Of a stretch of 58,082 nucleotides of DNA, positions 8,773 through 26,217 are shown piece by piece. Position numbers and translations under genes: made by a program. The notes below the pieces were generated by a model. That model was not told the origin of the DNA, ran no database searches, and saw nothing but the letters and a program-made list of their open reading frames with translations. Origin of the DNA: Bacillota bacterium (lineage in GTDB: Bacteria; Bacillota; Dehalobacteriia; UBA4068); contig JAILCQ010000037.1 in the NCBI GenBank assembly GCA_024679955.1, forward strand, positions 1-58,082, in the 5' to 3' direction. Each line of letters opens with the position of its first letter. Position 1 is the first letter of the stretch.

Positions 8773-9291
8773 CTAAAATTCTATGCCCCGCCGGGCGGCG
8801 ATCCCTTGGTCGAAGGGATGCTTGATCTTGCGCATTTCCGTCACATAGTCGGCTAGCTCCAGCAGGGCCGGGGACGGATCCCGTCCCGTCAGAACCATTT
8901 CCAGCCCTTCCGGTTTGTTGCGGATGAATTCCCGCAGCATGTCCTCGTCGATCACCCCATAATTGCAGGCGGAGATGGCTTCGTCCAGTATCAGCACATC
9001 CACACCGGCTGCGGCCTGCAGCGCCCTTTGGCACAGAGCGGAATAGTCCTTTTGCGCCTGCTGCTTTTGCTCCGGCGTCATTTTGTAGTAAAAGCCCGGT
9101 ACGGTTTTGCAATGGAACATTTCTATGGCAGGCAGGGTGCGCAGCGCTTTGATTTCCGAAGACTCGCCGGTTTTGAAAAACTGGCAAAAAATCACTTTTT
9201 TACCGGCCCCCGCCGCCCGGGCGGCCAGCCCTGACGCGGCGGTGGTTTTACCTTTGCCGTCGCCGCAATAAATATGTACCAATCCTTTCAT
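8773..9291 (-). CDS. cobO: Cob(I)yrinic acid a,c-diamide adenosyltransferase
   Basis: A 172-residue CobA/CobO/BtuR-family protein with the P-loop GDGKGKTTAA at residues 10-19 and the VLILDEAISACNYG block. It transfers adenosine from ATP to the cobalt of reduced corrinoids. The ATG follows GGAGGTGTAAACC. It is the last gene of the long leftward B12 operon, 3 nt after cobQ. Length is normal for the BtuR type. Confidence 0.95.
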   Translation of the reverse strand: MKGLVHIYCGDGKGKTTAASGLAARAAGAGKKVIFCQFFKTGESSEIKALRTLPAIEMFHCKTVPGFYYKMTPEQKQQAQKDYSALCQRALQAAAGVDVLILDEAISACNYGVIDEDMLREFIRNKPEGLEMVLTGRDPSPALLELADYVTEMRKIKHPFDQGIAARRGIEF

Positions 9292-9294
9292 GGT

Positions 9295-10758
9295 TTACAC
9301 CTCCCGACGCAAAATGCGATATACATAGTCCATGTCCAGACTCTGGCGCACCATATCCGCCAGTTTGTCATATTGCCCTTCTTTGTACTCCTTCATATCA
9401 AAGCAATGCAAGGCTTGTTCATCCACGCCGATATGCCGGCACAGCCCCTGCAAAACCATATCCGCTACCTGCGGCGCGTCGAAAACGCCGTGGATATAGC
9501 TGCCATATACCGTGCTGTCGCCCAAAACCGGCGGCAGCTGGGCCTGGCTCCGTCCCATATGGATTTCATAGCCTTCATATTTCAGGCCGTTTAAGGTGGA
9601 AAGCACGCCTTTTATGTTTTGGAAACAGCCGAAGGTCTGTTTTTGCACCTTTTGCCCCTGAAAGACCGTATCCATATCCAAAAGCCCCATACCGGCCACT
9701 TCCGTCAAGCCGCTGGCTTCCACCTGATCCGGATCGGCGATGGTTTTCCCCAGCATCTGATAGCCGCCGCAAACGCCAAAAATCACCTTACCGGCGGAGG
9801 CGGCTTTTTGTATGGCCGCTTCCAGGCCGTTTTGCCGCATCCACAGCAGATCGGCGATGGTGCTTTTGGTGCCGGGTACGACGATCATATCCGGATTGTG
9901 CAGATCCGCCGTCCTTTCCACATAGCGCACGGATACATTGTCATAGCGTTCAAAAGGGCTGAAATCGGTAAAGTTGGAAATGCGGGGCAGACGGATGATG
10001 GCAATATCCACCAATTTGCGGGCTTTGTTTTGCGCAAACCGTTCACTGAGGCTGTCTTCATCGTCAATATCCACATGGGTATAGGGCAAAGTCCCCAACA
10101 CCGGGATCTGACATAGATCCGCCAAATGGTCCAGGCCGGGCTGCAAAATCTCCCGCCGGCCGCGGAATTTATTGATCACCAGGCCTTTGACCCGGCGGCG
10201 CTCTTCCTCCGCCAGCAAGGCCACGGTGCCGTACAGCTGGGCGAAAACGCCGCCGCGATCGATATCGCCCACCAGCAAAACCGGGGCGTCCAGCAATTGG
10301 GCCAGGCCCATATTGACGATATCGTCCTCTTTGAGGTTGATTTCCGCCGGGCTGCCCGCGCCTTCGATGACGATGATATCATAGGCGTCGCTCAGGCTTT
10401 CATAGGCTTCCAGGATCGCCGGAACATAGTCCAGCTTGCGGCGATGGTATTCTTCCGCCGTCATATTGCCCCGGGCCCGGCCGTTGACGATCACTTGGCT
10501 GCCCATATCGGTGGTGGGCTTCAGGAGGATGGGGTTCATCCGCACGTCCGGGGCGATGCCCGCCGCTTCCGCCTGGGCCACCTGGGCGCGGCCCATTTCG
10601 CCGCCGTCCTTGGTAATAAAAGAGTTCAGGGCCATATTCTGGCTTTTAAAGGGCGCCACCCGATACCCGTCCTGTTTGAAAATACGGCACAAACCGGCGG
10701 TCAACAGGCTTTTCCCGGCATTGGACATGGTGCCTTGTATCATGATGTTCTTCGCCAT
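9295..10758 (-). CDS. cobQ: Cobyric acid synthase
   Basis: A 487-residue glutamine-dependent amidase (CbiP in the cbi nomenclature). The N-terminal synthetase domain holds the P-loop GTMSNAGKS at residues 9-17 and [10 protein letters not shown]; the C-terminal class I-like amidotransferase domain holds the nucleophile block [11 protein letters not shown] and a distal IHGVFD with the catalytic His. It amidates four side chains of adenosylcobyrinic acid diamide. The ATG at 10758 follows GAGGAGCGACA, better than the open start six codons upstream. Confidence 0.96.
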
Positions 10759-10824
10759 TGTCGCTCCTCTTTCCATCGCTTTTGTCGTATAAAGGCCAAA
10801 GGCCGCGTAGGCCGGACTCCGGAT

Positions 10825-12831
10825 CTACGGGGCCATATCGCCGCCTGCGGTCGGACCGCCCCCCTGCATAGTAAAGATATACACCGGGTTGTGGGCGGTC
10901 ATCAAATGGTAAGCGCCGGCTGTCCGGCCGTAGGACACGTTCAAACAGACCGCGTCGGTTTCCGTAAAGGAAAAAGCCTGCAGGCAATGGTTCAGGGCAG
11001 CGATGGATTCCAAAGTGACCGCGGTGGCCACGATGCGCGCCTGGGGATTTTTGGCCAAAACCAAATCGATGATTTGCGGCAGATTGCCGGAACTGCCGCC
11101 GATAAACACATGGCTGGGGGCGGGCAGCTCCCGGCAGATCTCCGGGGCGCTGCCGTGCAGCAGGGTGATATTATCCGCCGCAAACAGCCTTTGGTTGTGT
11201 TCCAGCAATTCCACGGCCTTCTCGTTTTGTTCTATGGCGTATACCTGCCCCTTTTTGGCCAGCAGCGCCATTTCTATGGATACGGAACCGGTGCCCGCGC
11301 CTACGTCCCAGCAGACGGCCGCCGGCGTCAGGCGCAGTTTGGACAAACACACCGCCCGCACTTCGCTTTTGGTCATGGGTACCTTGCCTTTTTCGCCTTC
11401 CCCCCGCTGAAAGGCCGCATCCGGCAATCCGGGGCTGACCACGGCGTCGGGCCGGGGGTTTTCGATCAAAGCCACGCTCAAAGAATCATAGGTCCCCTGC
11501 TGCAGCTCTTCCGCTGTACCGCAAACGATTTTTTCGTCCGGATAACTCAAACGCTGGCCCACGCTGAGGCGTACCTGGCCCAAACCGGCCCGGCTCAAAG
11601 CGGCGCATATCCCGGCAATGCCGTTTTCTCCGCCGGCCAGGGCGAATATGCGGGCATTGGCCCGCACGTCCGGTACGATATTGTGATCCCGGCCATGCAC
11701 GCTGACGGGCAGCACATCCTCATAGGAGGTTTGCAGGCGGGCGCATAAATAGACCAGGGAACTCAGGCCGGGCAAAACCCGCACCCGGCAGCCGGCCAGC
11801 AGAGGCAGCAGTTTTTTGGTTCCGCTGAAAAAGCCCACGTCTCCCGACATGATCACCGTAAAACGCCGGTATGCCGGATGGCTTTGTATATATCCGGCGA
11901 TGGCCTGGGGGGATATGGCGGCAAAGACCTCCTGCCCCGGCCGGGCTTTGGCTTCCAGCATACGGGCCGCGCCGATCAGGCAATCCGCTTCCCGGATGGC
12001 CTGGGCCACTTCTTCGGTGACGGCATTGGCATGCCCCGGCCCAATGCCGGCCACGGTCACCTGCGGTTGGACCGTCAGTTGGAAATCGGCGCATAGTTTT
12101 TCTATGGTCTGGGCATAGGTCAAGCCTTCTTGTTGGGGCGGCCTGCCGATGACCACCAGCTGCGCCCCGGCTTTTTCCGCTGCCGCCGCCTTTTCGGCAA
12201 AGCCGCCGGGGGAGCCGCTGTCTTTCGTCACCAGATAGGCGGCGGATATGCTGCGCAATATGGCCAGATTCATTTCTTCGGAAAAAGGCCCCTGCATGGC
12301 GATGATATGATCCGGTTTCAAACCAGCCTCCCGGCAGGCGGCCAAAGACGTCTCCATAGGCAAGACCCTGGCGTAAACCCGGTCGGTAAAACCGTCGATA
12401 GCCGTATAGCTGCGCAGGTCTTTGCTGCCGGTGGTCAGCAGAATATTGCCCTGCCGCCGGCTCAAATAGTCCGCGGCTTCCCCAATATCCGATACGAACA
12501 CCGTGCCCTCCGGGGCGTCGCCACTGTCCCGCAGCAGGCGCAGATAAGGGGTATGTTCCTCCCGGCAGGCCTCCACGATAGCGGCGGTGATTTGTGCCGC
12601 ATAGGGATGGGTGGCGTCGATCACCAGATCGTAGCGGTTTTTCGCCAGCAAGGCCCGGATATCCGCCGCTGCCAGCGGGCCGGTCAAAACCGTCAGGTTT
12701 TCTCCCTGGGGCAAAGAAGCCTCGCCGTAGGCCGTGGCCACGCAGACGGTGACCGCCGCCTGTTGCGCGGCCAGAAACTCGCTTAATGTCCGGCCTTCCT
12801 TGGTGCCGGCGAACAGGCAAAAATTATACAT
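10825..12831 (-). CDS. CbiJ-CbiE-CbiT fusion: precorrin-6A reductase / C5,C15-methyltransferase
   Basis: A 668-residue protein joining three steps of the corrin pathway. Residues 1 to about 250 match CbiJ/CobK reductase (LFAGTKEGR at the N-terminus, DATHPYA, LLTTGSKDL). About 258-455 match the CbiE tetrapyrrole methylase (VAGIGPGHANAVT). About 475-668 match CbiT, a class I SAM methyltransferase and decarboxylase (WDVGAGTGSVSIE, FIGGSSGNL). CbiE-CbiT fusion equals CobL and is common; adding CbiJ is less so. The start overlaps cbiH by 8 nt. No frameshift separates the domains. Confidence 0.93.
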   Translation of the reverse strand: MYNFCLFAGTKEGRTLSEFLAAQQAAVTVCVATAYGEASLPQGENLTVLTGPLAAADIRALLAKNRYDLVIDATHPYAAQITAAIVEACREEHTPYLRLLRDSGDAPEGTVFVSDIGEAADYLSRRQGNILLTTGSKDLRSYTAIDGFTDRVYARVLPMETSLAACREAGLKPDHIIAMQGPFSEEMNLAILRSISAAYLVTKDSGSPGGFAEKAAAAEKAGAQLVVIGRPPQQEGLTYAQTIEKLCADFQLTVQPQVTVAGIGPGHANAVTEEVAQAIREADCLIGAARMLEAKARPGQEVFAAISPQAIAGYIQSHPAYRRFTVIMSGDVGFFSGTKKLLPLLAGCRVRVLPGLSSLVYLCARLQTSYEDVLPVSVHGRDHNIVPDVRANARIFALAGGENGIAGICAALSRAGLGQVRLSVGQRLSYPDEKIVCGTAEELQQGTYDSLSVALIENPRPDAVVSPGLPDAAFQRGEGEKGKVPMTKSEVRAVCLSKLRLTPAAVCWDVGAGTGSVSIEMALLAKKGQVYAIEQNEKAVELLEHNQRLFAADNITLLHGSAPEICRELPAPSHVFIGGSSGNLPQIIDLVLAKNPQARIVATAVTLESIAALNHCLQAFSFTETDAVCLNVSYGRTAGAYHLMTAHNPVYIFTMQGGGPTAGGDMAP

Positions 12832-13555
12832 CGCGGTATCCTCTCGGCGTGATCATGGTATTTCCCAGCGCCACCGTGCTGGCATTGCCGATAAACACGG
12901 TGCAGAACATATCTACCTCCGCATCCCGCAATTCGCCCAGGGTCAAAACCCTGGCGCTTTCTCCCGGCCTGCCGATATTGCGGCAGACGCCGCATACTTG
13001 TCCGGCGGGGAGATGCCGCAATAAAATATCGCAGGCATTGCGCAGATGATCCGGCCGGCCATGGCTGGCCGGATTGTAGAGGACGATGGACAGATCGGCC
13101 TGGGCGGCGGCTTCCAACCTTTTTTCGATCTTTTCCCAAGGGGTCAGGCGGTCGCTCAAGCTGATGACGGCAAAGTCATGGGTCAGGGGCGCGCCCAGCA
13201 GCGCGCCGCCGCTGCAGGCGGCGGTCAGGCCGGGAACCACTTCGATCTGAGGTTCAGCGCTTTCTCCCCGCAATTGATAAATCAAGGCCGCCATACCGTA
13301 AATGCCGCTGTCGCCGGAACATACCATGGACACGGTTTTGCCCGCCGCCGCTTCATCCAAAGCCATTTGGCAGCGTTCGCTTTCTTTGGTCATCGGCGTG
13401 GTCATAAACGTTTTATCCGCATAGCGGTGGCGAAGCAGATCTACATAAACATGATAGCCGACGATCACGTCGCAGGATCGCAGGACTTGATCCGCCCGCA
13501 CGGTCATAGATTCGGCGTTTCCGGGGCCGATGCCCACCACAAATAATTTACCCAA
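12824..13555 (-). CDS. cbiH: Precorrin-3B / cobalt-factor III C17-methyltransferase
   Basis: A 243-residue tetrapyrrole methylase (CbiH/CobJ) with the N-terminal VVGIGPGN SAM-binding loop, CSGDSGIYGMA and PGLTAACSGGALLGAPL. It methylates C17 and drives ring contraction. The likely start is a TTG at 13555, supported by GGAGGTGTACT just upstream and alignment of the GKLFVVGIGPG N-terminus. It overlaps neighbours at both ends by 8 nt, typical of coupled translation. Confidence 0.94.
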   Translation of the reverse strand: MGKLFVVGIGPGNAESMTVRADQVLRSCDVIVGYHVYVDLLRHRYADKTFMTTPMTKESERCQMALDEAAAGKTVSMVCSGDSGIYGMAALIYQLRGESAEPQIEVVPGLTAACSGGALLGAPLTHDFAVISLSDRLTPWEKIEKRLEAAAQADLSIVLYNPASHGRPDHLRNACDILLRHLPAGQVCGVCRNIGRPGESARVLTLGELRDAEVDMFCTVFIGNASTVALGNTMITPRGYRDV

Positions 13556-14567
13556 AGTACACCTCCATATTTTCTGCCGCTATCGCGACGGTCACCCCCT
13601 GCATTGCCGTTTTGGGAACGATCAGGCGGCCGGCGTCCACCATTGCCGCCCGTTCGCATACCGTATCCACACCGGCGACGGTTTGGACAAAAGCAGAGGA
13701 GGAAAAGCTTCCTTCCACTTGCCGCAATTGTTCCGCGGAATAGAAAGTCAGGGGCCAGCCTTTTTGCCGGCAATAATCCAACAGGCCCTGTTCGCCGGCC
13801 TTCAGATCGATCGAGGCGGCTTGCCTCACGCCCCGTATATCGATGGCATGCTGTTCCAGCGTTTGTTCCACCGCTTGGGCGATGGTTTCCGCGGAAGCTC
13901 CCCGGCGGCAGCCGATGCCGATATGCAGCACCGGCGGGATCAGCCGCAGGGTTTGCCGGAAGGGCTCCCGGCGGCGATAGCCCAAATAAATGCCCACCTC
14001 GCCGCTGTCGCCGGCAACGACGCCGTTGGGATAGGCCGTGGCCACGGGAAAATCGCTGCAAAAGGCCACGTCCTTTTCCAATATGGCGGCGGAAACGGCT
14101 TTGGCCCGATCCATACGGTCGATGATGTATCCGTGTTTTGCCGCCCAGGCGTCCACAGCAAAACGGCCGTTGATATCCGTGGCTGTGGTCACCGCCGCCG
14201 TAGCCCCCAGATGGGCCGCCAGAGCCAGGCTCAGATCATTGGCGCCGCCAATATGCCCGGCCAGCAGCGGGATGACAAAACGGGCCAGTTCATCTATGGC
14301 CACCACCGCCGGATCGGTACGCTTGTCCCGGATATGGGGGGCGATTTGCCGCACGGCGATGCCGCAAGCCCCTACGAAGATCAGGGCGTCCGCCCAGGCG
14401 AAACAGTTGCCGTAAAAGTCTTTTTCCGGTTTGCCGACCGGCTGAAAGCCAGGCTCCGCCAAGCGCTCTACCGTATATCCCCGCAGGGTATCTTCGGCAA
14501 AATAGGAAAAGATGCGCCGGGCGGTTTTGCACCCTTGCCGGCTGTAGGCAAAAACGGCTACCTTCAT
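13548..14567 (-). CDS. cbiG: Cobalt-precorrin-5A hydrolase
   Basis: A 339-residue CbiG with its three usual parts: an N-terminal domain (residues 1 to about 120), a middle domain, and the C-terminal CobE-like domain beginning at HIGIGCRRGASAE. Conserved blocks include FVGACGIAVRQIAPH and PLLAGHIGGAN. It opens the delta-lactone and releases acetaldehyde in the anaerobic pathway, which marks this as early cobalt insertion. ATG start; its 5' end overlaps the cbiF stop. Confidence 0.95.
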   Translation of the reverse strand: MKVAVFAYSRQGCKTARRIFSYFAEDTLRGYTVERLAEPGFQPVGKPEKDFYGNCFAWADALIFVGACGIAVRQIAPHIRDKRTDPAVVAIDELARFVIPLLAGHIGGANDLSLALAAHLGATAAVTTATDINGRFAVDAWAAKHGYIIDRMDRAKAVSAAILEKDVAFCSDFPVATAYPNGVVAGDSGEVGIYLGYRRREPFRQTLRLIPPVLHIGIGCRRGASAETIAQAVEQTLEQHAIDIRGVRQAASIDLKAGEQGLLDYCRQKGWPLTFYSAEQLRQVEGSFSSSAFVQTVAGVDTVCERAAMVDAGRLIVPKTAMQGVTVAIAAENMEVYFG

Positions 14568-15319
14568 TCCGTAGCCTCCCGGTATTCCGTGCTGAACCCG
14601 GGGTGATAAAGCATGGAGCGCACAAAATGGTCGCTCAGGCAGTTGCCGACGATGATCAGGGAAGTTTTGGTCAAATGATTTTCGCTTACCGTTTCATGCA
14701 GGGTGCCGACGGTGCAGCGGAATATCTTTTCATCCGGCCAGGTGGCTTTGTAAACCACCGCCGCCGGCGTATCGGCGTCATATCCTCCCGCCAGCAGGTC
14801 GGCCTGGAGTTCTTCCGTTAAAGAGGTGCTCAAAAACAGCACCATGGTGGACTGATGAGCCGCCAGCGAGCGAATGGATTCCCGTTCCGGCACCGGCGTT
14901 TTGCCGGCGCTGCGGGTGATGATCACCGTTTGGCTGACGTCCGGCGCGGTATATTCCGCTTTCAAAGCGGCCGCCGCGCCGCAAAAGGCGCTGACCCCCG
15001 GACATACGTCGTAGGGGATGGACAGCTTATCCAGCTCGGCAAATTGTTCCTTGACGGCCCCGTAAATGCTGCTGTCACCGGTATGCAGCCGCACCAGGCT
15101 TTGTCCTTTTTGTTCCGCTTCCCGCATCACGGTCAGGACCTGTTCCAAGGTCATTTGGGCGCTGTTGTAGATTTGGCAATCCTTTTTGGTATAGGCCAGA
15201 AGCTGCGGATTGACCAAAGAACCGGCATAGATCACCACATCCGCCTCTTGCAGCAGGCGGGCGCCCCGCACTGTGATCAAATCCATCGCGCCGCTGCCGG
15301 CGCCTACAAAGTGTATCAT
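14564..15319 (-). CDS. cbiF: Cobalt-precorrin-4 C11-methyltransferase
   Basis: A 251-residue CbiF/CobM tetrapyrrole methylase: FVGAGSGAMDLITVRG at the N-terminus, YAGSLVNP, LHTGDSSIYGA and PGVSAFCGAAAAL. It methylates C11 of cobalt-precorrin-4 using SAM. The ATG lies 4 nt after the cbiD stop and the 3' end overlaps cbiG. Confidence 0.96.
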   Translation of the reverse strand: MIHFVGAGSGAMDLITVRGARLLQEADVVIYAGSLVNPQLLAYTKKDCQIYNSAQMTLEQVLTVMREAEQKGQSLVRLHTGDSSIYGAVKEQFAELDKLSIPYDVCPGVSAFCGAAAALKAEYTAPDVSQTVIITRSAGKTPVPERESIRSLAAHQSTMVLFLSTSLTEELQADLLAGGYDADTPAAVVYKATWPDEKIFRCTVGTLHETVSENHLTKTSLIIVGNCLSDHFVRSMLYHPGFSTEYREATE

Positions 15320-15322
15320 AGA

Positions 15323-16450
15323 TCATTCCTCCGTAATCTGTCGTAATAATGTATCGGCATTGGCGGTTTTTCCCAGGATACCGTATTTTTTGGAAAAAAC
15401 GATGGCTCCCGTTTCCACGGTATCGCCCCGCCGCTGCAAACCGGCTTCTACCCGCCGGATGATACGCTGCAAGACCGGGGCCTCCAAACCGGCCTCCCGC
15501 AAAAGCCGCAGGGCGTCGTCGCAGGCTACGCAATCCAGCATTTCTTCTACGGCGGCGGCCTTCAGGCCGCAGGCGGCGGCATGGGCGGCCAGTATTTCCA
15601 TACGGCAATCCCCATATTTGGAATGGGTGTTCAGCATGCCGCCGGCGATTTTTACCAGTTTGCCGATATGCCCCACCAAAAGCGCCCCGCGAAAACCGGA
15701 CTCCCGGCATATATCCAGGGAATCGCCGATGAAATTGGCGGTTTGCACAGCCAGGTCGGGGTTCACGGCCAGGCCCATGCGGATAAAGTCCGTGCCGTAA
15801 TTGCCCGGGGTCAGCAGGGCATAGTCTGCGCCGTTGGCCCGGCGCTGTTTCAGTTCCACGCGAATGGTATCCACCAGCGCCTGTTCGCTCATGGGCTCCA
15901 CAATGCCGCTGGTGCCCAGGATGGAAATGCCGCCGATAATACCCAGCCGGGGATTGAAGGTTTTTCGGGCCAGCTTTTCGCCTAGGGGCACGGAAATCTC
16001 CACGGACAGGCCGCCCCGGTAATCCAGTGTGCGGCAAACCTCGTCCACGTTTTCGTATATCATTTTTCGGGGCACGGAATTGATGGCCGCCGCGCCTACC
16101 GGTTGATCCAGGCCCCGTTTGACCACCCTGCCTACGCCGGGGCCGCCGTCGATGACGATACCGGGCCCGTCCGTCAAGGATACGGTGGCCACGATATGCG
16201 CGCCGCTGGTCACGTCGGGATCGTCGCCGCCGTCTTTGACGATGGCGCAGGAAACTTCTGTCTCCTGCCGCTTTATATCCACCACGTCCAGCTGCAGCAG
16301 GATGCCTTTGGGCGTCTGCAGGGAGATCTGCTCTTTGATTTGCCCGGAAAGCAGCATCCAGGCGGCGGCTTTGGCGGCGGCGGCGGCGCAAGAGCCGGTC
16401 GTATAGCCCAAACGCAGGGCTTTTCCGCCTTTGATGATGTATTCTTCCAT
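15323..16450 (-). CDS. cbiD: Cobalt-precorrin-5B C1-methyltransferase
   Basis: A 375-residue CbiD. Typical segments: LRLGYTTGSCAAAAAKAAA at the N-terminus, DGGDDPDVTSGAHI, GPGVGRVVKRGL, and LLVGHIGKLVKIAGGMLNTH near residue 245. It methylates C1 in the anaerobic corrin pathway. The ATG at 16450 is 4 nt downstream of the cbiC stop; an in-frame extension above it is the shadow of cbiC. Confidence 0.95.
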   Translation of the reverse strand: MEEYIIKGGKALRLGYTTGSCAAAAAKAAAWMLLSGQIKEQISLQTPKGILLQLDVVDIKRQETEVSCAIVKDGGDDPDVTSGAHIVATVSLTDGPGIVIDGGPGVGRVVKRGLDQPVGAAAINSVPRKMIYENVDEVCRTLDYRGGLSVEISVPLGEKLARKTFNPRLGIIGGISILGTSGIVEPMSEQALVDTIRVELKQRRANGADYALLTPGNYGTDFIRMGLAVNPDLAVQTANFIGDSLDICRESGFRGALLVGHIGKLVKIAGGMLNTHSKYGDCRMEILAAHAAACGLKAAAVEEMLDCVACDDALRLLREAGLEAPVLQRIIRRVEAGLQRRGDTVETGAIVFSKKYGILGKTANADTLLRQITEE

Positions 16451-16454
16451 AGGC

Positions 16455-17078
16455 TTACCGCAGGATCTGATAGAGCATGGCGTTGCAAATGGCCGCGGCC
16501 ACATTGCTGCCGCCTTTGCGGCCTTTGGCCACGATATACGGGGCGGCGGCGGCCATGATCCGCTCCTTACTTTCCACCACGTTGACGAAACCTACCGGCA
16601 CGCCGATGATCAGCGCCGGCTGCAGCTTGCCTTGCAGCATCAACTGTTCCAGGCTCAGCAAGGCGGTGGGGGCGTTGCCGATGGCGAAAATGCAGGGCTT
16701 GGCCAAAGCGGCGGCCCGTTCCATGGAAACCGTGGCCCGGGTGACGTTTCTTTCCTTGGCTTCCGCCGCCACATCGGCGTCGGCTATGAAGCAATGCACC
16801 TGTCCGCCCAACTGCTCCAGAATTTTTTTATTGATACCGGCTTTTGCCATTTGGGTATCGGTGATGATATCGCAGCCGGAACGCAGCGCGGCAATGCCTT
16901 TTTCCACCGCGTGGGGAGAAAAGGCCAGATTGTCGGCATAGTCGAAGTCCGCTGTGGTATGGATGACCCGTTTGACCACCAATTCGTTTTCCGGCGCGAT
17001 CTTTTTGTCGCCCAGGATTTGGCTGATGATTTCAAAACTACGTTGTTCGATTTCTCCGGGGGTGACTTTTTCAATCAT
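16455..17078 (-). CDS. cbiC: Cobalt-precorrin-8 methylmutase
   Basis: A 207-residue CbiC/CobH with the catalytic His40 in VIHTTADFDY and the downstream AIGNAPTALL and GVPVGFVNV blocks. It moves the methyl group from C11 to C12, producing cobyrinic acid. The ATG at 17078 has GGAGGAAAAACATCGCC upstream and overlaps the cbiA stop by 8 nt; earlier starts are the cbiA shadow. Confidence 0.96.
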   Translation of the reverse strand: MIEKVTPGEIEQRSFEIISQILGDKKIAPENELVVKRVIHTTADFDYADNLAFSPHAVEKGIAALRSGCDIITDTQMAKAGINKKILEQLGGQVHCFIADADVAAEAKERNVTRATVSMERAAALAKPCIFAIGNAPTALLSLEQLMLQGKLQPALIIGVPVGFVNVVESKERIMAAAAPYIVAKGRKGGSNVAAAICNAMLYQILR

Positions 17079-18432
17079 GGCGATGTTTTTCCTCCAAACA
17101 GTTTTGATAAAAGCGCAAGGCAAAATTTGGATTGGCATAAAAATGAAAATGGGGAAAACCGGCGTACAAATGGGGCGAAGCAAAAACGCAAGGCCATTGG
17201 TTGCCGTTGGTTTTGGTCGCCGTAAAGTCCCGGCCGGTATCTTCGCTGTCCCAATGATGGAATTCATGAGCGGGGATCTGCTCGCCGGCCTGACAAAGCA
17301 GGCAGTCTTTTTGCGCCTGCAGGGTCACATAGCCGAAACGGGTCAATTTGCCTGTGGGATAGGAGCTGCCCGGCAAATAGCCCACCATGGGATGATCCCC
17401 CACCTTTTCCGTCAAGTACATAAAACCGCCGCATTCGGCGATACAGGGCAAGCCCCGGCGCAAAGCGTCGCCGATGCTTTGCCGCATGGCAACGTTTTCG
17501 CTGAGGGTTTGGGCATACAGCTCCGGATAACCGCCGCCCAGATACAAACCGTGAATGTCTTGGGGCAGCCCGCCGTCGTGCAGGGGGCTGAAGGGGATCA
17601 GCTCCGCGCCCAGCTCCCGCAGCAAATCCAAGCTGTCTTCATAATAAAAGCAAAAGGCCCTGTCTCTGGCTACGGCGATGCGCACCGCTTCGTCGAAAGG
17701 CGGCGGCGATACGGGCTGATAGTCCAAGGGCGGGGCCTGACCGGCCAGGGCCAGCAGGCCGTCCAAATCCACGGTTTTTTCCGTTTGTTCCGCCAGGATC
17801 TGCATTTTTTCTTTTAAGCCTTCCACTTCCGCCGCGGTGACCAGTCCCAAATGCCGGCTTTCCAGGCGGCAGTCTTTCAGCCGGGGCAAATAGCCCAAGG
17901 GCTTCACCCGCTCCCCAAATCGTTGGCGGATGGCTTCCGCCAAACGGGGATATACGCCGGCGCTGCATTGGTTCAATACGACGCCCTGTATGGGATTGTC
18001 GGGAAAGAAATGCAAAAAACCATGTATGGTCGCCAAAACGGACAGGGAAGCGCCGGCGCTATTGACCACCAGCACCACCGGGGCGTCCGCCACCTGCGCC
18101 AAATGATAGGAGCTGGCTTCCGTACCGGCGGCGGACAGGCCGTCGTAAAAGCCCATTACCCCTTCGATAATGCTGACATGGCAATCGGCGCCGTTTTTGG
18201 CCAGCAAATAGCGGGCCGTGTTTTCATTAAAAAAGAACAGATCCAGATTCGTGCTTTTGGCGCCGATGATGCGGCTGTGAAACATGGGATCGATATAATC
18301 CGGCCCGCATTTGCAAGCGCCCACCCGCAAACCCCGGTTGATCAGCGCCTGTAAAATGCCGCAGGTAACGGTGGTTTTACCGCAGCTGCTATTGGTGCCC
18401 GCCAACAGCACGCGGGGTATGGTTTTTTGCAT
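17071..18432 (-). CDS. cbiA: Cobyrinate a,c-diamide synthase
   Basis: A 453-residue CbiA: P-loop AGTNSSCGKTT at residues 11-21, CGPDYIDPMFH, EGVMGFYDG, then a C-terminal glutamine amidotransferase domain from about 245 with nucleophile Cys335 in AECGGFMYL and a late HEFHHW block. It amidates the a and c side chains using glutamine and ATP. It is the first intracellular synthesis gene after the transporter genes of the operon. Confidence 0.96.
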   Translation of the reverse strand: MQKTIPRVLLAGTNSSCGKTTVTCGILQALINRGLRVGACKCGPDYIDPMFHSRIIGAKSTNLDLFFFNENTARYLLAKNGADCHVSIIEGVMGFYDGLSAAGTEASSYHLAQVADAPVVLVVNSAGASLSVLATIHGFLHFFPDNPIQGVVLNQCSAGVYPRLAEAIRQRFGERVKPLGYLPRLKDCRLESRHLGLVTAAEVEGLKEKMQILAEQTEKTVDLDGLLALAGQAPPLDYQPVSPPPFDEAVRIAVARDRAFCFYYEDSLDLLRELGAELIPFSPLHDGGLPQDIHGLYLGGGYPELYAQTLSENVAMRQSIGDALRRGLPCIAECGGFMYLTEKVGDHPMVGYLPGSSYPTGKLTRFGYVTLQAQKDCLLCQAGEQIPAHEFHHWDSEDTGRDFTATKTNGNQWPCVFASPHLYAGFPHFHFYANPNFALRFYQNCLEEKHRHD

Positions 18433-18453: not shown

Positions 18454-19560
18454 CTAGGGTAATTGTTTGGATATGGGGATATGCCGTTCCGTTGCCAAAG
18501 CCAGCAAACGCCCGTTGGTTTCGTTCAGCGTGCCCAGGGGCGTTCCTGCATCCAGCACGGCGGAGCATTGCAGCAGCAACCGGGCGGCCCGGTCATACTC
18601 TTCTTCGCCCATGGGCGTAAAAGCGGGGGCTGCCACCACATGGTCGCTTAATGTCTTCGCGATCTGATAGTCCACGTCGTTTTCAAACAGTATGCCGGTG
18701 GCAAAGGGCATGCGCCGCTTTTGCAGCTCCCGATAGAAGGGCGCGCCAAAACCGCCGCCGGCGACCACGAACAGCTGGGGCGGTCCGCCGGTTTTGGACA
18801 GCTCCACGCTGCCGAAAAGCGGGTTGTAAGAGCCGTTGTCCAGGTTGAACAGCTCTTCTATCGAATACTTTTGCAAAATCTGTTCGGGAGAACCAAAGGC
18901 GGTGATGGTGTCCCCCTTGACGCATAAAAGATAATCGGAAACCTTCATCGCCAAATCGATTTCATGCAGGGACATGACCACCGTGATTTGTTTTTTCTGC
19001 GCCATATTGCGCAGGATTTCCAAAATCTCGATTTTGTGGCGGATATCCAAATAGGCGGTGGGTTCGTCCAAAATGATGATTTCCGGTTCCTGGCAAATGG
19101 CCCGGGCCAGCATGATCCGCTGCCGCTGGCCGTCGGAAAGGGTGGAAAAATCCCGATCGGCAAGCTCTATCCCGTGCACCTGTTCCAGGGCGTCTTCCAC
19201 GGCGGCGATATCTTCCACCGTCAGCTTGCCCAAAAGATTGGTATAGGGATAGCGGCCCATGGCCACCACTTCCGCGCAGGTGATCAACTCCAGACGGACC
19301 CGATCCGTCAGCATCACCGCCATTTGCCGGGCCATCTGTTTGGCCGACCGGGCAAAAATGGACTGGTTGTCGATGTATACCTTGCCGCCGATGGCCGGCA
19401 GGTGACGGACCAGGGTTTTCAAAATGGTGGATTTGCCGGCGCCGTTGGGGCCGATCAGGGTGAGGATACGGCCTTTATCCAATTGTAAATTGATGTCGTG
19501 AATCAATGCGTTTCCGTCGTAACCGACGGATAAATCTTCTATTTGCAGATATCTTTCCAT
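18454..19560 (-). CDS. BtuD/FecE-like ABC transporter ATPase with a C-terminal extension
   Basis: A 368-residue ABC ATPase for iron-siderophore or B12 type importers: Walker A GPNGAGKST at 37-45, signature LSDGQ at 141-145, Walker B IIILDEP at 161-167, switch His in SLHEID. The ABC part ends near residue 255, as usual. About 110 further residues follow, beginning PQLFVVAGGGFGAPFY and containing a glycine-rich loop that recalls a nucleotide-binding fold. Its function is unknown. It lies 11 nt downstream of the permease gene, under the cobalamin riboswitch, so the substrate is likely a corrinoid or a precursor. Confidence 0.88.
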   Translation of the reverse strand: MERYLQIEDLSVGYDGNALIHDINLQLDKGRILTLIGPNGAGKSTILKTLVRHLPAIGGKVYIDNQSIFARSAKQMARQMAVMLTDRVRLELITCAEVVAMGRYPYTNLLGKLTVEDIAAVEDALEQVHGIELADRDFSTLSDGQRQRIMLARAICQEPEIIILDEPTAYLDIRHKIEILEILRNMAQKKQITVVMSLHEIDLAMKVSDYLLCVKGDTITAFGSPEQILQKYSIEELFNLDNGSYNPLFGSVELSKTGGPPQLFVVAGGGFGAPFYRELQKRRMPFATGILFENDVDYQIAKTLSDHVVAAPAFTPMGEEEYDRAARLLLQCSAVLDAGTPLGTLNETNGRLLALATERHIPISKQLP

Positions 19561-19570: not shown

Positions 19571-20701
19571 TTATACCCCCTCCATTTTTTTCCGATTGAC
19601 CATCATATAGATGACGATGGGCGCGCCGAAAACAGAGGTTACCGTACCGATTTTCAATTCCGTGGGGGCAAAAACGGTTCGGGCCAGCAGATCGCAGAAT
19701 ACGCAGAACACCGCGCCGCATAAAAAGGTAGCCGGTATCATGTACAAGGGCTTGGTGGTTTTCAAAAGCGTTCTGGTGATATGGGGCACGGCTATGCCTA
19801 CGAAAGAGATAGGCCCGGCAAAAGCGGTGACGCAGGCGGAAAGAATGCTGGAAATCAATATCAGTATCAAACGAAAGCGTTTTACGTTGATGCCCATACT
19901 TTTGGCGTAGCTTTCCCCTAAAGAATAGGCGCTGATGGATTTGGAGCATAAAGCGGCGGCGGTCAGCCCGATCAAACAGATGATGATGGATATTTTGACA
20001 TGATCCCAATTGGCGCCGGAAAAAGAACCCATGGACCAATTGGTCAAATTGACGATATCATGATCATCGGCAAAGGTAATACAAAAATCGGTGACGGCGC
20101 TGCACACATAACCGACCATGATGCCGATGACCAAAAGCATGGACATATTCTGCACCCTTTGGGAAAACAGCAGCACCACACAGGTGATCAACAGCGAGCC
20201 GAGAAACGCCGCCCCGATCATGGTCAGAGAACTGATGTTGCCGATATAGGGGGCAAGAAAGATCAAAGTAATGCCGACCACCATTTTGGCCCCGGAAGAT
20301 ATACCCAATTCAAAAGGCCCGGCGATGGGATTGCGGAAAAACACTTGCAAAAGCAAACCGGAGATAGACAACGCGCCGCCCAGGATAGCCGCCAGCAGCA
20401 TACGGGGTATGCGGATGCTGAATAAAATCTGGCTTTCCGTGGTGGCGTTGATTTCGCTTGGCAGCGCTTCTCCGGAGACGCCGCTAGTAAAAAGATTGGC
20501 GATTCCGCTGCGAATTCCTTGTGCCAGCATGCGAAAAACTTCGCCGGCGGATATGGAAACGGAACCGATCGTGATGTTCAAAACCAGCCCCAGAAGCAGC
20601 AGGCCCAGAAACAACAACGATACCATGATAAAACGGCTGGTATTGCCGAAATGGAGGGAGGGCGTTTTGCCCGGGGATTGAGCAGTATCTTTTCTTTTCA
20701 T
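19571..20701 (-). CDS. FecCD-family ABC transporter permease
   Basis: A 376-residue BtuC/FecCD permease with about ten hydrophobic segments and family blocks such as RIPRMLLAAILGGALSISG, NPIAGPFELGISSGA and GPISFVGIAVPHITR. It forms the membrane channel with the ATPase encoded next and the binding protein encoded before. The ATG at 20701 is preferred over a start 25 codons upstream that would run through the terminator hairpin at 20758-20789. Substrate inferred as corrinoid from riboswitch control. Confidence 0.9.
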   Translation of the reverse strand: MKRKDTAQSPGKTPSLHFGNTSRFIMVSLLFLGLLLLGLVLNITIGSVSISAGEVFRMLAQGIRSGIANLFTSGVSGEALPSEINATTESQILFSIRIPRMLLAAILGGALSISGLLLQVFFRNPIAGPFELGISSGAKMVVGITLIFLAPYIGNISSLTMIGAAFLGSLLITCVVLLFSQRVQNMSMLLVIGIMVGYVCSAVTDFCITFADDHDIVNLTNWSMGSFSGANWDHVKISIIICLIGLTAAALCSKSISAYSLGESYAKSMGINVKRFRLILILISSILSACVTAFAGPISFVGIAVPHITRTLLKTTKPLYMIPATFLCGAVFCVFCDLLARTVFAPTELKIGTVTSVFGAPIVIYMMVNRKKMEGV

Positions 20702-20757
20702 ACAGGTTGCCTTTCCGTTAGGATGCCTTTTTGTGGTAAAGCTGGGATAGGGAATGG

Positions 20758-20789
20758 AAAAATTGCCGCTTTGCAAGCGGCAATTTTTT
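20758..20789 (-). terminator. Hairpin between binding protein and permease genes
   Basis: A 14-bp stem (20758-20771 with 20775-20788) around a short loop is followed on the minus strand by a run of T. It overlaps the stop of the binding protein gene and probably limits readthrough to the permease, giving more binding protein than permease. Confidence 0.75.
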
Positions 20790-21927
20790 AACGCAATCGA
20801 TATAAGTAAGGCACTTCCATCAGGTCATCCGCTTCGCCGGAAAAAATCAGATGGAAGCTTTCGATCATTTTTCCCAATTGCGTCGTTTCCTGGTACATGT
20901 TTTGGTTCGTACACCACACGTCGCCGTTTTTCACCGCTTTCAATTCCGCCAGGATCTTATTTTTGTCTATAAGATCATCCAGCGTCTGGATCTCCCCGCC
21001 GATGGTGCTGTTGTAAATCACCACATCGGCGTTTTTGGCTGTGGCGAAAAAGGTTTCCATTTCCAAATTTACGGTGGAGGCATTGGTCTCCGGATCGCCC
21101 AGGTTGTCAAAGGCATAGGTCCCGCCGGCCAATTCGATCATTTTGCTGACGTAGTCGCCGCTTTTGCGTGCCACCACATAACCGGAAGAACTGATATGGA
21201 AGAAGACCACGGTCTTTCCCGTGCTCTCCGTATTGGTTTCGTTGATATAATCCTTTTGTTCCGCGAACAATTGCCGGGCGGTATCTTCTTTGTTCAAAAG
21301 CGCGGCGTACAGCTTGATCCATTCGGTGCGTCCCAGGGGATGGGATTCATTGCTGGACTGATCTACCAAAACCGCCAGTCCCAGTTCTTCCAGCTTCTCT
21401 TTCACTTCGGAAGCATGGCCGATCATGGTGGACTCGATGGCCAGATGGCAGTTGTTGTTGAGTATCATTTCATAATCCGGCTCGCTGTATTTGCCCGCGA
21501 AGAGGATGCGACCCTCCTCCATGGCCCGCTTGGCGTTTTCGATATACCAGGCGTCCGCCCGGGAGCCGGAAAGGCGAATGGCAGAAAGACTGTCCAAAGC
21601 GTCGAACAGGCACATACTGGCGGTAGCCGCCAGATATATGTTTTCGATGGGTTGATACAAAGGCGTGATATCGGCGGCGATGCCCGCCGGCGCCTCATGA
21701 CCTTCCGGGACGACCAAAAAACGGCTGCCGTCCCCCAGGGTGATCAGCTTATAGCCGTCTTCATAATAGTCCACGGCAAATTCCGTGGCAAAGTCCAATT
21801 CCATTTGATCCACCGGCTGCCAACCGTTGCCCAAGCCGTTGCCGGCGGTTTCCGTTTTTTGGCAAGCACCCAGACAAAGAAGAAGCAAAAGAACGGCTGC
21901 GCCAACCCAAAAATAGTGCTTTTTCAC
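20788..21927 (-). CDS. BtuF-like substrate-binding lipoprotein
   Basis: A 379-residue lipoprotein with signal peptide and lipobox LGAC (Cys22), followed by a periplasmic-binding-protein fold of the FepB/BtuF class (IYLAATASMCLFDAL, IESTMIGHASEVKEKLEELGLAVLVD). Start is a GTG with GGAGAATAAAT upstream. Between residues 85 and 110 it matches the usual helical backbone pattern of class III binding proteins. It delivers substrate to the permease and ATPase encoded downstream; a corrinoid or related tetrapyrrole is most likely given the operon. Confidence 0.85.
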   Translation of the reverse strand: MKKHYFWVGAAVLLLLLCLGACQKTETAGNGLGNGWQPVDQMELDFATEFAVDYYEDGYKLITLGDGSRFLVVPEGHEAPAGIAADITPLYQPIENIYLAATASMCLFDALDSLSAIRLSGSRADAWYIENAKRAMEEGRILFAGKYSEPDYEMILNNNCHLAIESTMIGHASEVKEKLEELGLAVLVDQSSNESHPLGRTEWIKLYAALLNKEDTARQLFAEQKDYINETNTESTGKTVVFFHISSSGYVVARKSGDYVSKMIELAGGTYAFDNLGDPETNASTVNLEMETFFATAKNADVVIYNSTIGGEIQTLDDLIDKNKILAELKAVKNGDVWCTNQNMYQETTQLGKMIESFHLIFSGEADDLMEVPYLYRLR

Positions 21928-21929
21928 AT

Positions 21930-22334
21930 TTATTCTCCTTTGATGGTGGCGCTGTCAAAGTGCAGTTTATATTCGATCACATGGGGTTGGCTCATGGCGA
22001 TGGTGCAGGCGCTGACTTCCATATCCGTATCCAATTCCACGGGGATCTCAAAGGTGGAATTGCCCTCTTTTTGCACAGGTTCGTAACGGGTGTCGCCGAT
22101 CTGCATGTATTCATAATAGGGGCTGCTCCATACGATGGTGGCGATTTTCTCTTCCCCGTTTATGGTCAATTGGGCGGGAGATTCCACCGAAGCCCGGCCG
22201 GTGCCGCCGGCCAGGGATACTTCTATCGTATAAACGCCGTCGGCATAGACGCCGTCGGCGTCGTTTTTCCCGCAGCCGCACAAGGCAAAACATACCAGCA
22301 GGCAAAGGGTTATAAGAATAAGGGCTTTTCTCAT
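21930..22334 (-). CDS. Small lipoprotein with beta-rich, NEAT-like domain
   Basis: A 134-residue protein: signal peptide with lipobox ALCGC (Cys21), then one domain of about 105 residues with alternating beta-strand pattern. It contains ADGVYTIEV, TIVWSSPYYEYMQIG and a C-terminal VIEYKLHF. The SSPYYEY and YKLHF motifs resemble the heme-contacting motifs of NEAT domains, but only weakly. The ATG at 22334 follows GGGAG. It appears related to the next upstream lipoprotein (22362-22904). Role unknown; binding of heme or a corrinoid at the surface is a guess. Confidence 0.6.
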   Translation of the reverse strand: MRKALILITLCLLVCFALCGCGKNDADGVYADGVYTIEVSLAGGTGRASVESPAQLTINGEEKIATIVWSSPYYEYMQIGDTRYEPVQKEGNSTFEIPVELDTDMEVSACTIAMSQPHVIEYKLHFDSATIKGE

Positions 22335-22361
22335 AAAGTCCACTCCCTAAAAGAAATAGAT

Positions 22362-22904
22362 TTATTTTCCCTGCAAAGCGTCTTCCGGTATGGCGTCGGA
22401 TAGGAATACCAGGACCCGGTCATACCATTTTTGCTTGCGGACGCTCCAGGCGGCGCAATCCGTATCCGTATTCAGCGCCTGCAAAGGCAGGGTAAAGGTA
22501 TAGGCGCCTTCGCTGTCCAAAACCGCCGGAATACAATTGCCAGCGGAGTCTGCCAGAGCTTCCTCGCCGGTTCCTGCATACAGTTTGTCATAACCGTCGC
22601 TACTCAAGGTCATCGTTGCCGTCATAGTATCGCCCGCCACGTTCAGCACACATTTGACGATGCGAAACATGGAGGAGCTGGACGTGGTATTGATTTCATA
22701 GGAACCGTCGGCGATCTGCGAGGCCGTCAAAGGCTGGGCGGCTTCCGCGCCGTCCCCGGCCGCATCGGCTTCGGCGCTGCCGCCGCTTTGGGCGGCAGCG
22801 CCGTCATCCGTGGGCGCGGCGGGCGTACAGCCCGCCAGCGCCGCAAAAGTCAATAGCAAACCGATGGCCAGAAAAATAAGCAAAGACTTTTTCAAGGCCT
22901 TCAT
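22362..22904 (-). CDS. Small lipoprotein, related to its neighbour
   Basis: A 180-residue protein: lipobox LAGC (Cys26), a low-complexity Ala/Gly/Asp linker to about residue 60, then a domain starting IADGSYEINTTSSSSMFRIV. It shares with the next gene the order DGxYxI, SS..Y....G, a strand with (F)x(I/L)P(V/L), L(D/N)TD, and a closing Y/F strand. The linker suggests it stands off the membrane. It lies 2 nt from cbiK, between the chelatase and the importer, so it probably handles the same tetrapyrrole. Function not established. Confidence 0.6.
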   Translation of the reverse strand: MKALKKSLLIFLAIGLLLTFAALAGCTPAAPTDDGAAAQSGGSAEADAAGDGAEAAQPLTASQIADGSYEINTTSSSSMFRIVKCVLNVAGDTMTATMTLSSDGYDKLYAGTGEEALADSAGNCIPAVLDSEGAYTFTLPLQALNTDTDCAAWSVRKQKWYDRVLVFLSDAIPEDALQGK

Positions 22905-22906
22905 AT

Positions 22907-23845
22907 TTATTTCTCCATGGTGGCAGCGGCATGCGCAACGATCATGTCTTGAACGCCTTTATATTGGCCCAAGCCTTTCAGCAGGCATTCCACATCAAAG
23001 CCGGCAGCGGTGAAAATGCTCTTCCAGGAATCTTCTTCATCGCCTGCCATATCGTTGTTGGCATGGTCGCCGGCCACGATCATCAAGGGCGTCAGGACAA
23101 CTTTGGTCGCGCCGGATTCTTGTACCAGAGCCAGCACATCGTCTACGGAAGGCGTAGCTTCCACGGTGCCGATGAAGTAATTGTCATAACCGGCGGCGGT
23201 GATTTTTTCCTGCAGCTTGGCGTATACGGCGTTGGATTCATGTTCCGTGCCGTGGCCCATGAAGACGATGGCGGTATCGTCGTTGGCATATTCGGCGGTT
23301 TCCTCGGTGAGGACTTTGATCAAAGCGTCAAAATCCGCGTCTTCGGTCAGCAGCGGCACACCGATCTTCAGGCTGTCAAATTGATCGGCATAAGCGGAAA
23401 CCTCTGCGACAATGTCATCGTACTCAAAACCGGGCATGACATGGGTGGGCTGCACCACGACTTCTTTCACGCCGTCGGCAACCAGTCTGTCCATGGCTTC
23501 GGTCACGTTATCGATTTCCAGGTTTTCCCGTTCGGCCAGAATGTCGATGATGATTTGGCTGGTGAAGGCCCGGCGTACTTCATAATCGGGATAGGCTTTC
23601 TGCAAAGCTTCTTCCACGGCGCCGATGGTAATATCCCGGCTGTCGTTGTAGCTGGTGCCAAAGCTGACCGCCAGCAGCACGGGTTTGACGGCGTCTTCCG
23701 TGCCTTCGTCGCTGGTGGCTTCATCGTCGGTCTGGGCGGAGCCGTCGTCCGGCGTGGTCGCAGGCGCGCAGCCGGCCAGGGCCGTCAGGCTCAGCAGCAA
23801 ACCGAGAGCCAATAAAATAAGCAGCGATTTTTTCAGAGTCTCCAT
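22907..23845 (-). CDS. cbiK: Extracytoplasmic CbiK-type cobaltochelatase lipoprotein
   Basis: A 312-residue protein with a clear signal peptide and lipobox LAGC (Cys26), an acidic linker to about residue 52, and then the class II chelatase domain. Candidate metal and catalytic residues are His135 in VVQPTHVMPG, His198 in FMGHGTEHE and His261 in VAGDHANND. The family inserts Co2+ into sirohydrochlorin, and exported members are known in sulfate reducers. First gene after the cobalamin riboswitch, with AGGAGGAATAA upstream. An exported chelatase is odd because the other Cbi enzymes are cytoplasmic; it might bind or exchange metal on imported tetrapyrroles. Confidence 0.85.
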   Translation of the reverse strand: METLKKSLLILLALGLLLSLTALAGCAPATTPDDGSAQTDDEATSDEGTEDAVKPVLLAVSFGTSYNDSRDITIGAVEEALQKAYPDYEVRRAFTSQIIIDILAERENLEIDNVTEAMDRLVADGVKEVVVQPTHVMPGFEYDDIVAEVSAYADQFDSLKIGVPLLTEDADFDALIKVLTEETAEYANDDTAIVFMGHGTEHESNAVYAKLQEKITAAGYDNYFIGTVEATPSVDDVLALVQESGATKVVLTPLMIVAGDHANNDMAGDEEDSWKSIFTAAGFDVECLLKGLGQYKGVQDMIVAHAAATMEK

Positions 23846-24102: not shown

Positions 24103-24129
24103 TTCGCTTTAACTCGAAGGTCATAAGCT

Positions 24130-24335
24130 TGCGTGTTTAAGCAGGTCTCCTGACTCGCGCATCTTTGGCGTGCATACGGCCTTCTCAAGAGATTTCTCAA
24201 TGGCCGACTCTCGTCTCGTATACAGCCTCTTCGCTCACAGTGGCGGTACCGTTCCGGATTCTGACCGGATTCCCTGAAGTCCGTCCTTCCCACAGGCAAT
24301 CTGTGAAAAGGGAACGGCCTTCCAACACACTTTAA
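24130..24335 (-). promoter_or_regulatory. Cobalamin riboswitch controlling the B12 operon
   Basis: Read on the minus strand this has the full cobalamin riboswitch layout. There is an upstream paired region, the AGGGAATCCGGTCAGAATCC core, GGTACCGCCACTGTGA, a long variable hairpin, and the terminal B12 box CGAGTCAGGAGACCTGC (24141-24157). It sits between a consensus promoter and an intrinsic terminator. Binding of adenosylcobalamin should favour termination and lower expression of uptake and synthesis genes. Confidence 0.96.
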
Positions 24336-24357
24336 ACACATATGAAATTCAATTCTA

Positions 24358-25532: not shown

Positions 25533-25545
25533 ACCGGCGCTCCTT

Positions 25546-26217
25546 TCACTGACGGACCCATTGCCGTTCCTGTTTTTCCAGCATATTGATGCATAGCAGA
25601 ACCACGGCGGAAATGGCGATATTGATCAATACCCATTCCATGGCCTTCGCGTCTTCATTGGTACGCCACAATTGATAGACCGTTGTGGAAATGGTGGCGG
25701 TTTTTCTCGGAGTATAGCTGGCGATCATGCTGGTGGCCCCGTATTCGCCTAAGGCCCGGGCAAAGGCCAGTACCGCGCCGGCGGTCAGTCCCTGGCGGCA
25801 TACGGGCAGGCGTATCCGCCAAAAGATCCAGCTGTTGGAGAGCCCCAGGGTGCGGCCGGAATAGGCCAGGGTTTCGTCGAAGGCCTCAAAAGCGCCTCTG
25901 GCGGTGCGATACATCAGGGGAAAGGCCACCACCACCGTGGCGAAAATCGCCGACCACCAGGTCATGACCATTTTTGTACCGAAAATCTGATACAGCCAGG
26001 CGCCGACCACCCGTTTGGGGCCCAAGAGCCGCAGCAATAAATATCCCACTACCGTGGGGGGCAAAACCAGCGGCAAAGTCAGGATCACGTCCAAAACGCC
26101 TTTCAGCAAGCGAGGGATCTTGGCGATGTAGTAAGCGGCGGCGATACCGGCGAAGAAAATGACTACCGTGGAAATGGCGGCAATGCGCAGGGAATTATAC
26201 AGAGGATACCAATCCAT
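25546..26217 (-). CDS. modB: Molybdate ABC transporter permease
   Basis: A 223-residue inner-membrane permease with about five hydrophobic helices and the ABC-coupling EAA-type loop near AFEAFDETLAYSGRTLGLS, and ARALGEYGATSMIA. Typical ModB blocks include LTLPLVLPPTVVGYLLL. It pairs with ModA upstream and ModC downstream, separated by 153 nt and 13 nt respectively. Confidence 0.94.
   Translation of the reverse strand: MDWYPLYNSLRIAAISTVVIFFAGIAAAYYIAKIPRLLKGVLDVILTLPLVLPPTVVGYLLLRLLGPKRVVGAWLYQIFGTKMVMTWWSAIFATVVVAFPLMYRTARGAFEAFDETLAYSGRTLGLSNSWIFWRIRLPVCRQGLTAGAVLAFARALGEYGATSMIASYTPRKTATISTTVYQLWRTNEDAKAMEWVLINIAISAVVLLCINMLEKQERQWVRQ

Follow-up and report, generated by a model that had tools for sequence, protein, structure and literature searches.

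A cobalamin-riboswitch-controlled gene module with a predicted surface CbiK chelatase, putative NEAT-fold lipoproteins and an importer in B12-making Clostridia and their relatives

At the head of a vitamin B12 (cobalamin) operon in a 58,082-nucleotide stretch of DNA from a Bacillota bacterium (contig JAILCQ010000037.1, assembly GCA_024679955.1), we find six genes that are predicted to place a cobalt chelatase of the CbiK type on the outside of the cell, together with two lipoproteins of probable NEAT fold (LP2 and LP3), a substrate-binding lipoprotein (SBP) and an ATP-binding cassette (ABC) importer. The window, by which we mean that whole stretch, is one entire contig (G000:C30) of a 1.92 Mb genome that is 95.7% complete and lies in 44 contigs. 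Comparison of genes and modelled structures shows this module to be controlled by a cobalamin riboswitch, conserved, often fused, and found with corrin-ring synthesis in B12-making Clostridia and relatives. We propose, with moderate confidence, that it captures a sirohydrochlorin-type tetrapyrrole at the surface, loads it with cobalt and imports it for B12 synthesis. The evidence consists of export by signal sequence, fold by prediction, the active site, gene fusions, regulation and genome association; from these we infer the ligand, the site of metallation, the direction in which the chelatase works and the order of handover. On the minus strand the genes run from the riboswitch through exported CbiK, LP2, LP3, SBP, permease and ATPase to the cbi genes:

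24123..24337, minus strand: cobalamin riboswitch RF00174 (cmscan 78.8 bits, E 8.8e-18; gathering score 31.5)
22907..23845, minus strand: exported CbiK, a predicted lipoprotein class II chelatase of 312 aa with lipobox Cys26 (Pfam, PDB and catalytic residues)
22362..22904, minus strand: LP2, 180 aa, predicted NEAT-fold domain at residues about 58-180, lipobox Cys26 (profile, AlphaFold2 (AF2) and Foldseek)
21930..22343, minus strand: LP3, 137 aa, predicted NEAT-fold domain (AF2 and Foldseek)
20788..21927, minus strand: SBP lipoprotein (Peripla_BP_2), 379 aa, Cys22 (Pfam 1.5e-31; joined to an LP3 domain in 14 relatives)
19571..20776, minus strand: FecCD-type permease, BtuC-like (Pfam 4e-81)
18454..19560, minus strand: ABC ATPase with a C-terminal extension, BtuD-like (NCBIfam FecE 5.3e-65 and PRK09536 1.3e-64, both below cut-off)

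The original prediction had put these genes directly behind the riboswitch and had taken the first four products for lipoproteins, and both statements hold. Signal peptides of lipoprotein type are recognized in CbiK (N-terminus METLKKSLLILLALGLLLSLTALAGC; Cys26), LP2 (N-terminus MKALKKSLLIFLAIGLLLTFAALAGC; Cys26), LP3 and the SBP (Cys22). Of the four lipoboxes, that of LP3 (LCGC) is the weakest and least canonical: its cysteine is Cys24 from a GTG start and Cys21 from an internal ATG. An AGGAGG stands in front of the ATG of the exported CbiK. We also observed that the N-termini of the window's CbiK and LP2 are near-identical (KKSLLI.LA.GLLL...LAGC; window 22362-23845), and that a congener (locus L015) has CbiK and LP2 as a single protein; either a fused gene was later split or the signal peptide was duplicated.

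The exported CbiK shows the characteristics of a class II cobaltochelatase whose active site is predicted to be intact. It passes Pfam PF06180 with 291.5 bits (gathering score 26.2), and its nearest PDB entries are Salmonella CbiK (1qgo, 1.3e-54) and 9b86, named 'Heme-binding protein FetB' (1.4e-51); the match to the exported CbiK of D. vulgaris (2xvx, 8.7e-38) is weaker than either. The chelatase histidines named in the original prediction, H145 and H207 (1QGO numbering), are indeed present, and together with E89 they are invariant in 87/87 exported CbiKs, that of the window included. A protein that merely binds would hardly keep them so strictly, and we rejected a pseudo-chelatase on the same ground. 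The window CbiK misses the NCBIfam equivalog NF047852 (256.2 bits against a cut-off of 400), a threshold that does not separate the two CbiKs of this genome, since the cytoplasmic one falls short as well (207.6 bits). A quick tree groups the module CbiKs in a single clade (SH-aLRT, an approximate likelihood ratio test, 99) and leaves most cytoplasmic CbiKs outside it. Among the few signal-less CbiKs inside that clade, some are truncated at contig ends or have missed signal peptides, and the others seem to have lost the signal secondarily. Many exported CbiKs, for example at L021:7874-9049, L054:5909 and L103:5980, carry an extra, probably helical N-terminal stretch (AADxVAxLIDAIYVQxRTxxTDxQCxxAKxxWDxLTxAQKxLV), and tandem CbiK domains occur within single exported proteins (L028:5695 and L078:3; two and three copies).

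Another key observation concerns LP2 and LP3, both of which are shown by modelling to have the predicted NEAT fold, that of heme-binding surface proteins. When the window sequences alone were searched against Pfam and NCBIfam, no usable family match was returned, and alignments and structure prediction were needed: LP3 scores 13.2 bits against the Pfam NEAT model PF05031 (gathering score 32.8) and LP2 does not match it. At the level of families, 29/58 LP3 members (best 2e-5) and 27/56 LP2 members (best 9e-5) match Pfam NEAT weakly. The LP2 profile aligns over its full length with IsdX2 NEAT5 (4h8q, 2.7e-4), and hhalign relates LP2 to LP3 as homologues (97.4%). AF2 models were obtained with confidence scores (pLDDT, predicted local distance difference test) of 84.4 for LP2 and 88.7 for LP3; for each model the top 30 Foldseek matches in the PDB are all NEAT domains, with probability 1.00 to IsdX1, IsdX2, IsdA and IsdH, the best match for LP3 being IsdX1 (3sik, 4.4e-5).

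The two domains depart from heme-binding NEAT domains at the YXXXY motif that supplies the heme ligand. Near its C-terminus LP3 has T114-x-A116-M117-S118-x-P120-H121-x3-Y125, in which M117, Y125 and T114 are conserved in 58/58 members and H121 in 56/58; the motif thus reads HXXXY, with H121 at the position (by spacing) of the first tyrosine. In LP2 the second tyrosine (Y161) is invariant and the first is Lys, Arg or Gly, depending on gap placement. These conserved residues, M117, H121 and Y125 of LP3 and Y161 of LP2, cluster in the segment from which known NEAT domains provide their heme ligand. Clostridial NEAT domains that lack YXXXY and have a conserved Met in that loop have been reported before (PMC4143258).

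For the importer, family assignments are broad. The SBP matches only Peripla_BP_2, with weak similarity to IsdE, and a search against the PDB returned nothing at a threshold of 0.01; the original description of this protein as 'BtuF-like' was sound as to a binding lipoprotein, but the label is unspecific. The permease has PRK03784 as its best NCBIfam BtuC model (2.9e-65), with a score of 220.6 that lies below the cut-off of 334. The ATPase aligns with the corrinoid ABC ATPase model PRK09536 over residues 4-350, scoring 218.8 against a cut-off of 537.

A scan of the genome collection with LP3 gave at least 583 relatives. We counted module parts in the best 80 loci; since these were picked for their likeness to the window's LP3, and contig ends truncate several of them, the figures describe close relatives only: CbiK is present in 76, LP2 in 79, the SBP in 78, a BtuC-type permease in 72 and a BtuD-type ATPase in 71, with all six parts in 67, and the order recurs across Clostridia. 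The same loci hold many fusions (LP2+LP3 in 49, CbiK+LP2 in 13, LP3+SBP in 12), and rarer ones join CbiK+LP2+LP3 (2), CbiK+CbiK (2) or a triple CbiK to LP2 (1). Recurrence of the order in at least 67 loci, with fusions, led us to reject a chance gene neighbourhood. Behind the ATPase gene, 20 loci continue directly with CbiA, 8-9 with CobQ and 2 with CbiL, whose substrate is cobalt-factor II. A Rfam search placed a cobalamin riboswitch 5' of the module in 17/18 sampled loci, the exception being L053. Furthermore, eight loci from LP3-positive genomes (L137-L144) represent a variant in which no CbiK neighbours SBP-BtuC-BtuD; their surface proteins, of about 600-1800 aa, combine LP3 domains with as many as seven LP2-type domains and, in most cases, an additional SBP-like domain, and in six of the eight (L137-L142) a cobalamin riboswitch stands directly 5' of the NEAT-like gene. 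It follows from this variant that the core is formed by the NEAT-like domains and the importer under B12 control, the chelatase being frequent and not universal.

The module also goes with corrin synthesis in genome content. Since it is too sparse for an association test in samples of the window's own class (30 genomes), of its phylum and of one order in that phylum, we turned to an order that includes a Blautia genome and used 395 of its genomes, among which LP3-type domains occur in 126 and the corrin-pathway marker CbiC in 222. CbiC is present in 126/126 genomes with LP3 and in 96/269 without it (Fisher p 4.5e-42, uncorrected for shared ancestry); conversely, LP3 occurs in 0/173 CbiC-negative genomes. 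This constant company in that order indicates that the module goes with making the corrin, not with scavenging B12: a scavenging system for corrinoid or heme would be expected in non-makers at least as often. A wide occurrence of the lipoproteins apart from corrinoid genes, which the original prediction had named as a finding that would refute it, was not seen in this sample. Among 50 genomes drawn from module loci CbiC is found in 45, and the rule is not absolute, as G274, a genome (98% complete) from another part of the window's phylum, has LP3 and lacks CbiC.

The original prediction reasoned that the cytoplasmic pathway would need another chelatase. This was not quite right as put: the genome itself answers it with a second, signal-less CbiK (C35:73441-74193), on another contig than the window operon and in an operon with its own cobalamin riboswitch upstream:

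L003 (G000:C35:66000-84160) 6324-10800, minus strand: second cobalamin-riboswitch operon, encoding CbiL, an ABC-2 ATPase, an ABC-2 permease, CbiK and an anchored double NEAT-like protein

The last protein of that operon joins one LP2-like and one LP3-like domain to a membrane anchor. Both this second CbiK and the predicted NEAT fold of LP2 and LP3 are new beyond the original prediction. In 24 of the 50 module genomes, all 24 of them CbiC-positive, the exported protein is the only CbiK found, CbiX lying outside the search (the CbiK model detects only some CbiX-type control genomes); the remaining genomes have a second CbiK that is nearly always signal-less. The window's genome encodes HemA, a SirC-type protein, HemC, CobA/HemD, HemB and HemL in a single cluster and so can make sirohydrochlorin itself, for which reason we rejected precursor auxotrophy as the purpose of the module in this organism. 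In other loci, the pair of ABC-2 genes with CbiL recurs near anchored LP3 proteins (L109, L119) and near the module (L076, L093), and in L096 the ABC-2 pair sits between LP2 and LP3+SBP. We noted, too, CbiK-CbiL fusion proteins of 524 aa and cytoplasmic type (L110:3712, L120:5548), which join cobalt insertion to the next step.

Among described systems, the gene set resembles the Iht system joined to an Isd-like NEAT relay, and its regulation and genome association point to B12. In the Iht system of P. gingivalis, a CbiK-like lipoprotein, IhtB, works with the ABC importer IhtCDE and the TonB receptor IhtA and has been assigned to heme and iron (PMC10913741). Both systems thus combine a CbiK-like lipoprotein on the surface with an importer made of binding protein, permease and ATPase; in contrast, Iht is Gram-negative and has no NEAT domains described, whereas the window has NEAT-like lipoproteins, a cobalamin riboswitch and a cbi operon. 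No TonB-dependent receptor of the IhtA kind is seen among the annotated operon genes, nor is one expected in a Gram-positive-type set. The likeness to Isd/NEAT systems (IsdX1, IsdX2, IsdA-H, IsdEF) lies in NEAT-fold surface domains that would relay a tetrapyrrole to an SBP/FecCD importer; here, however, the axial Tyr is replaced (by His in LP3, mostly by Lys/Arg/Gly in LP2), a chelatase is exported, and the context is B12, not iron. The clostridial NEAT group (PMC4143258) shares the fold, the lack of YXXXY and a conserved Met of the beta7-beta8 loop that has been proposed as ligand, but most of its members are LPXTG proteins with heme as their presumed ligand, and that paper has no chelatase or cobalamin link. 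CbiK of Salmonella (1qgo) has the same fold and active site, but is cytoplasmic, whereas the window's CbiK appears to be a lipoprotein and its relatives fuse CbiK to NEAT-like domains. D. vulgaris has a cytoplasmic CbiK in addition to its periplasmic CbiK-P, and the window's genome likewise encodes both an exported and a cytoplasmic form. CbiK-P (2xvx) is likewise exported with a conserved active site, but is not known to adjoin NEAT domains. In the open-access literature, we found no description of the module under CbiK or cobalamin with NEAT, or under a surface or lipoprotein cobaltochelatase.

We envisage that at the cell surface the NEAT-like domains would bind a sirohydrochlorin-type tetrapyrrole, that the lipoprotein CbiK would put cobalt into it, that LP3, with its Met and His, would pass the cobalt tetrapyrrole to the SBP, and that BtuCD would bring it to cytoplasmic CbiL. 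The tetrapyrrole might be supplied by neighbours, or it might be a precursor that the cell itself has leaked or exported, and in the window's genome the surface system would run beside an ordinary cytoplasmic CbiK route. The predicted NEAT fold and the tracking of corrin synthesis (126/126) support the binding, metallating and importing role that the original prediction gave to the set; the metal exchange outside the cell that it also suggested is still conjectural. A bolder version, which we regard as possible but rather unlikely, makes this an extracytoplasmic step of B12 synthesis itself: sirohydrochlorin would be exported or scavenged, metallated at the surface by CbiK, carried by the NEAT-like domains with their His and Met, and brought back into the cell for CbiL as cobalt-sirohydrochlorin, in a tetrapyrrole cobaltophore cycle or some other obligatory extracytoplasmic metallation. 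Export would then possibly fall to the ABC-2 transporter that shares an operon with CbiL and CbiK, and Clostridia that have the exported CbiK as their only one, of which there are many, would depend on the cycle. Several points weigh against the proposal of surface capture and cobalt loading. The ligands of LP2, LP3 and the SBP are ones that we infer; the association statistic ignores shared ancestry; the exported CbiK, the only CbiK found in the 24 genomes, need not be the sole cobalt chelatase there; in the window's genome a cytoplasmic route is complete (HemA-SirC-HemC-CobA/HemD-HemB-HemL, cytoplasmic CbiK and CbiL); and L137-L144 pair the same importer with NEAT-array proteins and no adjoining CbiK, so that the chelatase is not always part. 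Moreover, the nearest surface CbiK for which a system has been described, IhtB, is believed to work on heme (PMC10913741).

The strongest rivals are uptake of finished corrinoids and uptake of heme or iron. If cobamides or cobinamide were the cargo, the NEAT-like domains and SBP would bind corrinoids and CbiK would be only a binding or quality-control domain; a BtuC/BtuD-like importer whose ATPase resembles corrinoid ABC ATPases, the cobalamin riboswitch and the variant loci without CbiK all suit this idea, but cobamide auxotrophs should then need the module most, and LP3 is confined to CbiC-positive genomes in the Blautia-containing order. The full conservation of the metal-insertion residues of CbiK also tells against it, as does the fact that cobalt within a corrin is inert to chelatases, and we consider it unlikely. 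A hybrid of Isd and Iht, in which NEAT lipoproteins capture heme, CbiK runs in reverse to release iron and the ABC importer takes in iron, heme or porphyrin, draws on the NEAT fold of LP2 and LP3, the closeness of CbiK to FetB (9b86), the weak similarity of the SBP to IsdE, and the Iht set of CbiK-like lipoprotein, periplasmic binding protein, permease and ATPase, which is thought to take iron from heme (PMC10913741). The cobalamin riboswitches and cbi neighbours, the replaced axial Tyr in both domains and the absence of LP3 from the 173 CbiC-negative genomes, to which heme would be useful as well, make this quite improbable. A narrower alternative is that CbiK with a bound tetrapyrrole traps cobalt, which the importer takes in as such or in a small complex: B12 control, the fact that CbiK binds cobalt in known structures and the lack of any CbiMNQO seen among the window operon genes are compatible with it, yet two domains of tetrapyrrole-pocket type are hard to explain for bare cobalt and transporters of the FecCD family usually move chelates rather than bare ions. 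We think it very unlikely.

The remainder of the operon and its control elements can be summarized as follows, the promoter and terminator being candidates from a pattern scan only:

24386-24358, minus strand: promoter-like TTGACA-17-TATGAT (-35/-10-like), just 5' of the riboswitch
24078-24060, minus strand: terminator-like hairpin downstream of the riboswitch
17071..18432, minus strand: CbiA, cobyrinic acid a,c-diamide synthase (NF002204, 447 bits, cut-off 254)
16455..17267, minus strand: CbiC, precorrin-8X methylmutase (PF02570 2.8e-80), the real start probably being at about 17078
8773..16504, minus strand: CbiD, CbiF, CbiG, CbiH, a CbiJ-E-T fusion, CobQ and cob(I)alamin adenosyltransferase (NCBIfam)

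Upstream of the B12 operon, on the same strand, window 24477-30704 holds a likely molybdate ABC transporter and molybdenum cofactor genes, the family test there having been made on the ModC-like ATPase only; this molybdenum neighbourhood is also present in the congener L015.

Surveys count any CbiK as a cytoplasmic cobalt inserter and any BtuFCD as a B12 importer, and both calls may be wrong in many gut Clostridia. Tetrapyrrole precursor salvagers have been predicted, mostly among Firmicutes, and are little explored (Shelton et al., PMC6461909); they would be natural users of a surface system, although the window's own genome is not one of them. If our proposal is true, corrin precursors would be traded, or cobalt captured, at the cell surface, which would bear on the question of these salvagers (PMC6461909), and the NEAT fold would extend from heme to B12 chemistry. 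A riboswitch-controlled set of exported CbiK, NEAT lipoproteins and importer in many B12-building gut Clostridia suggests that these cells catch a tetrapyrrole for B12 on their outside, and perhaps charge it with cobalt there, before taking it up.

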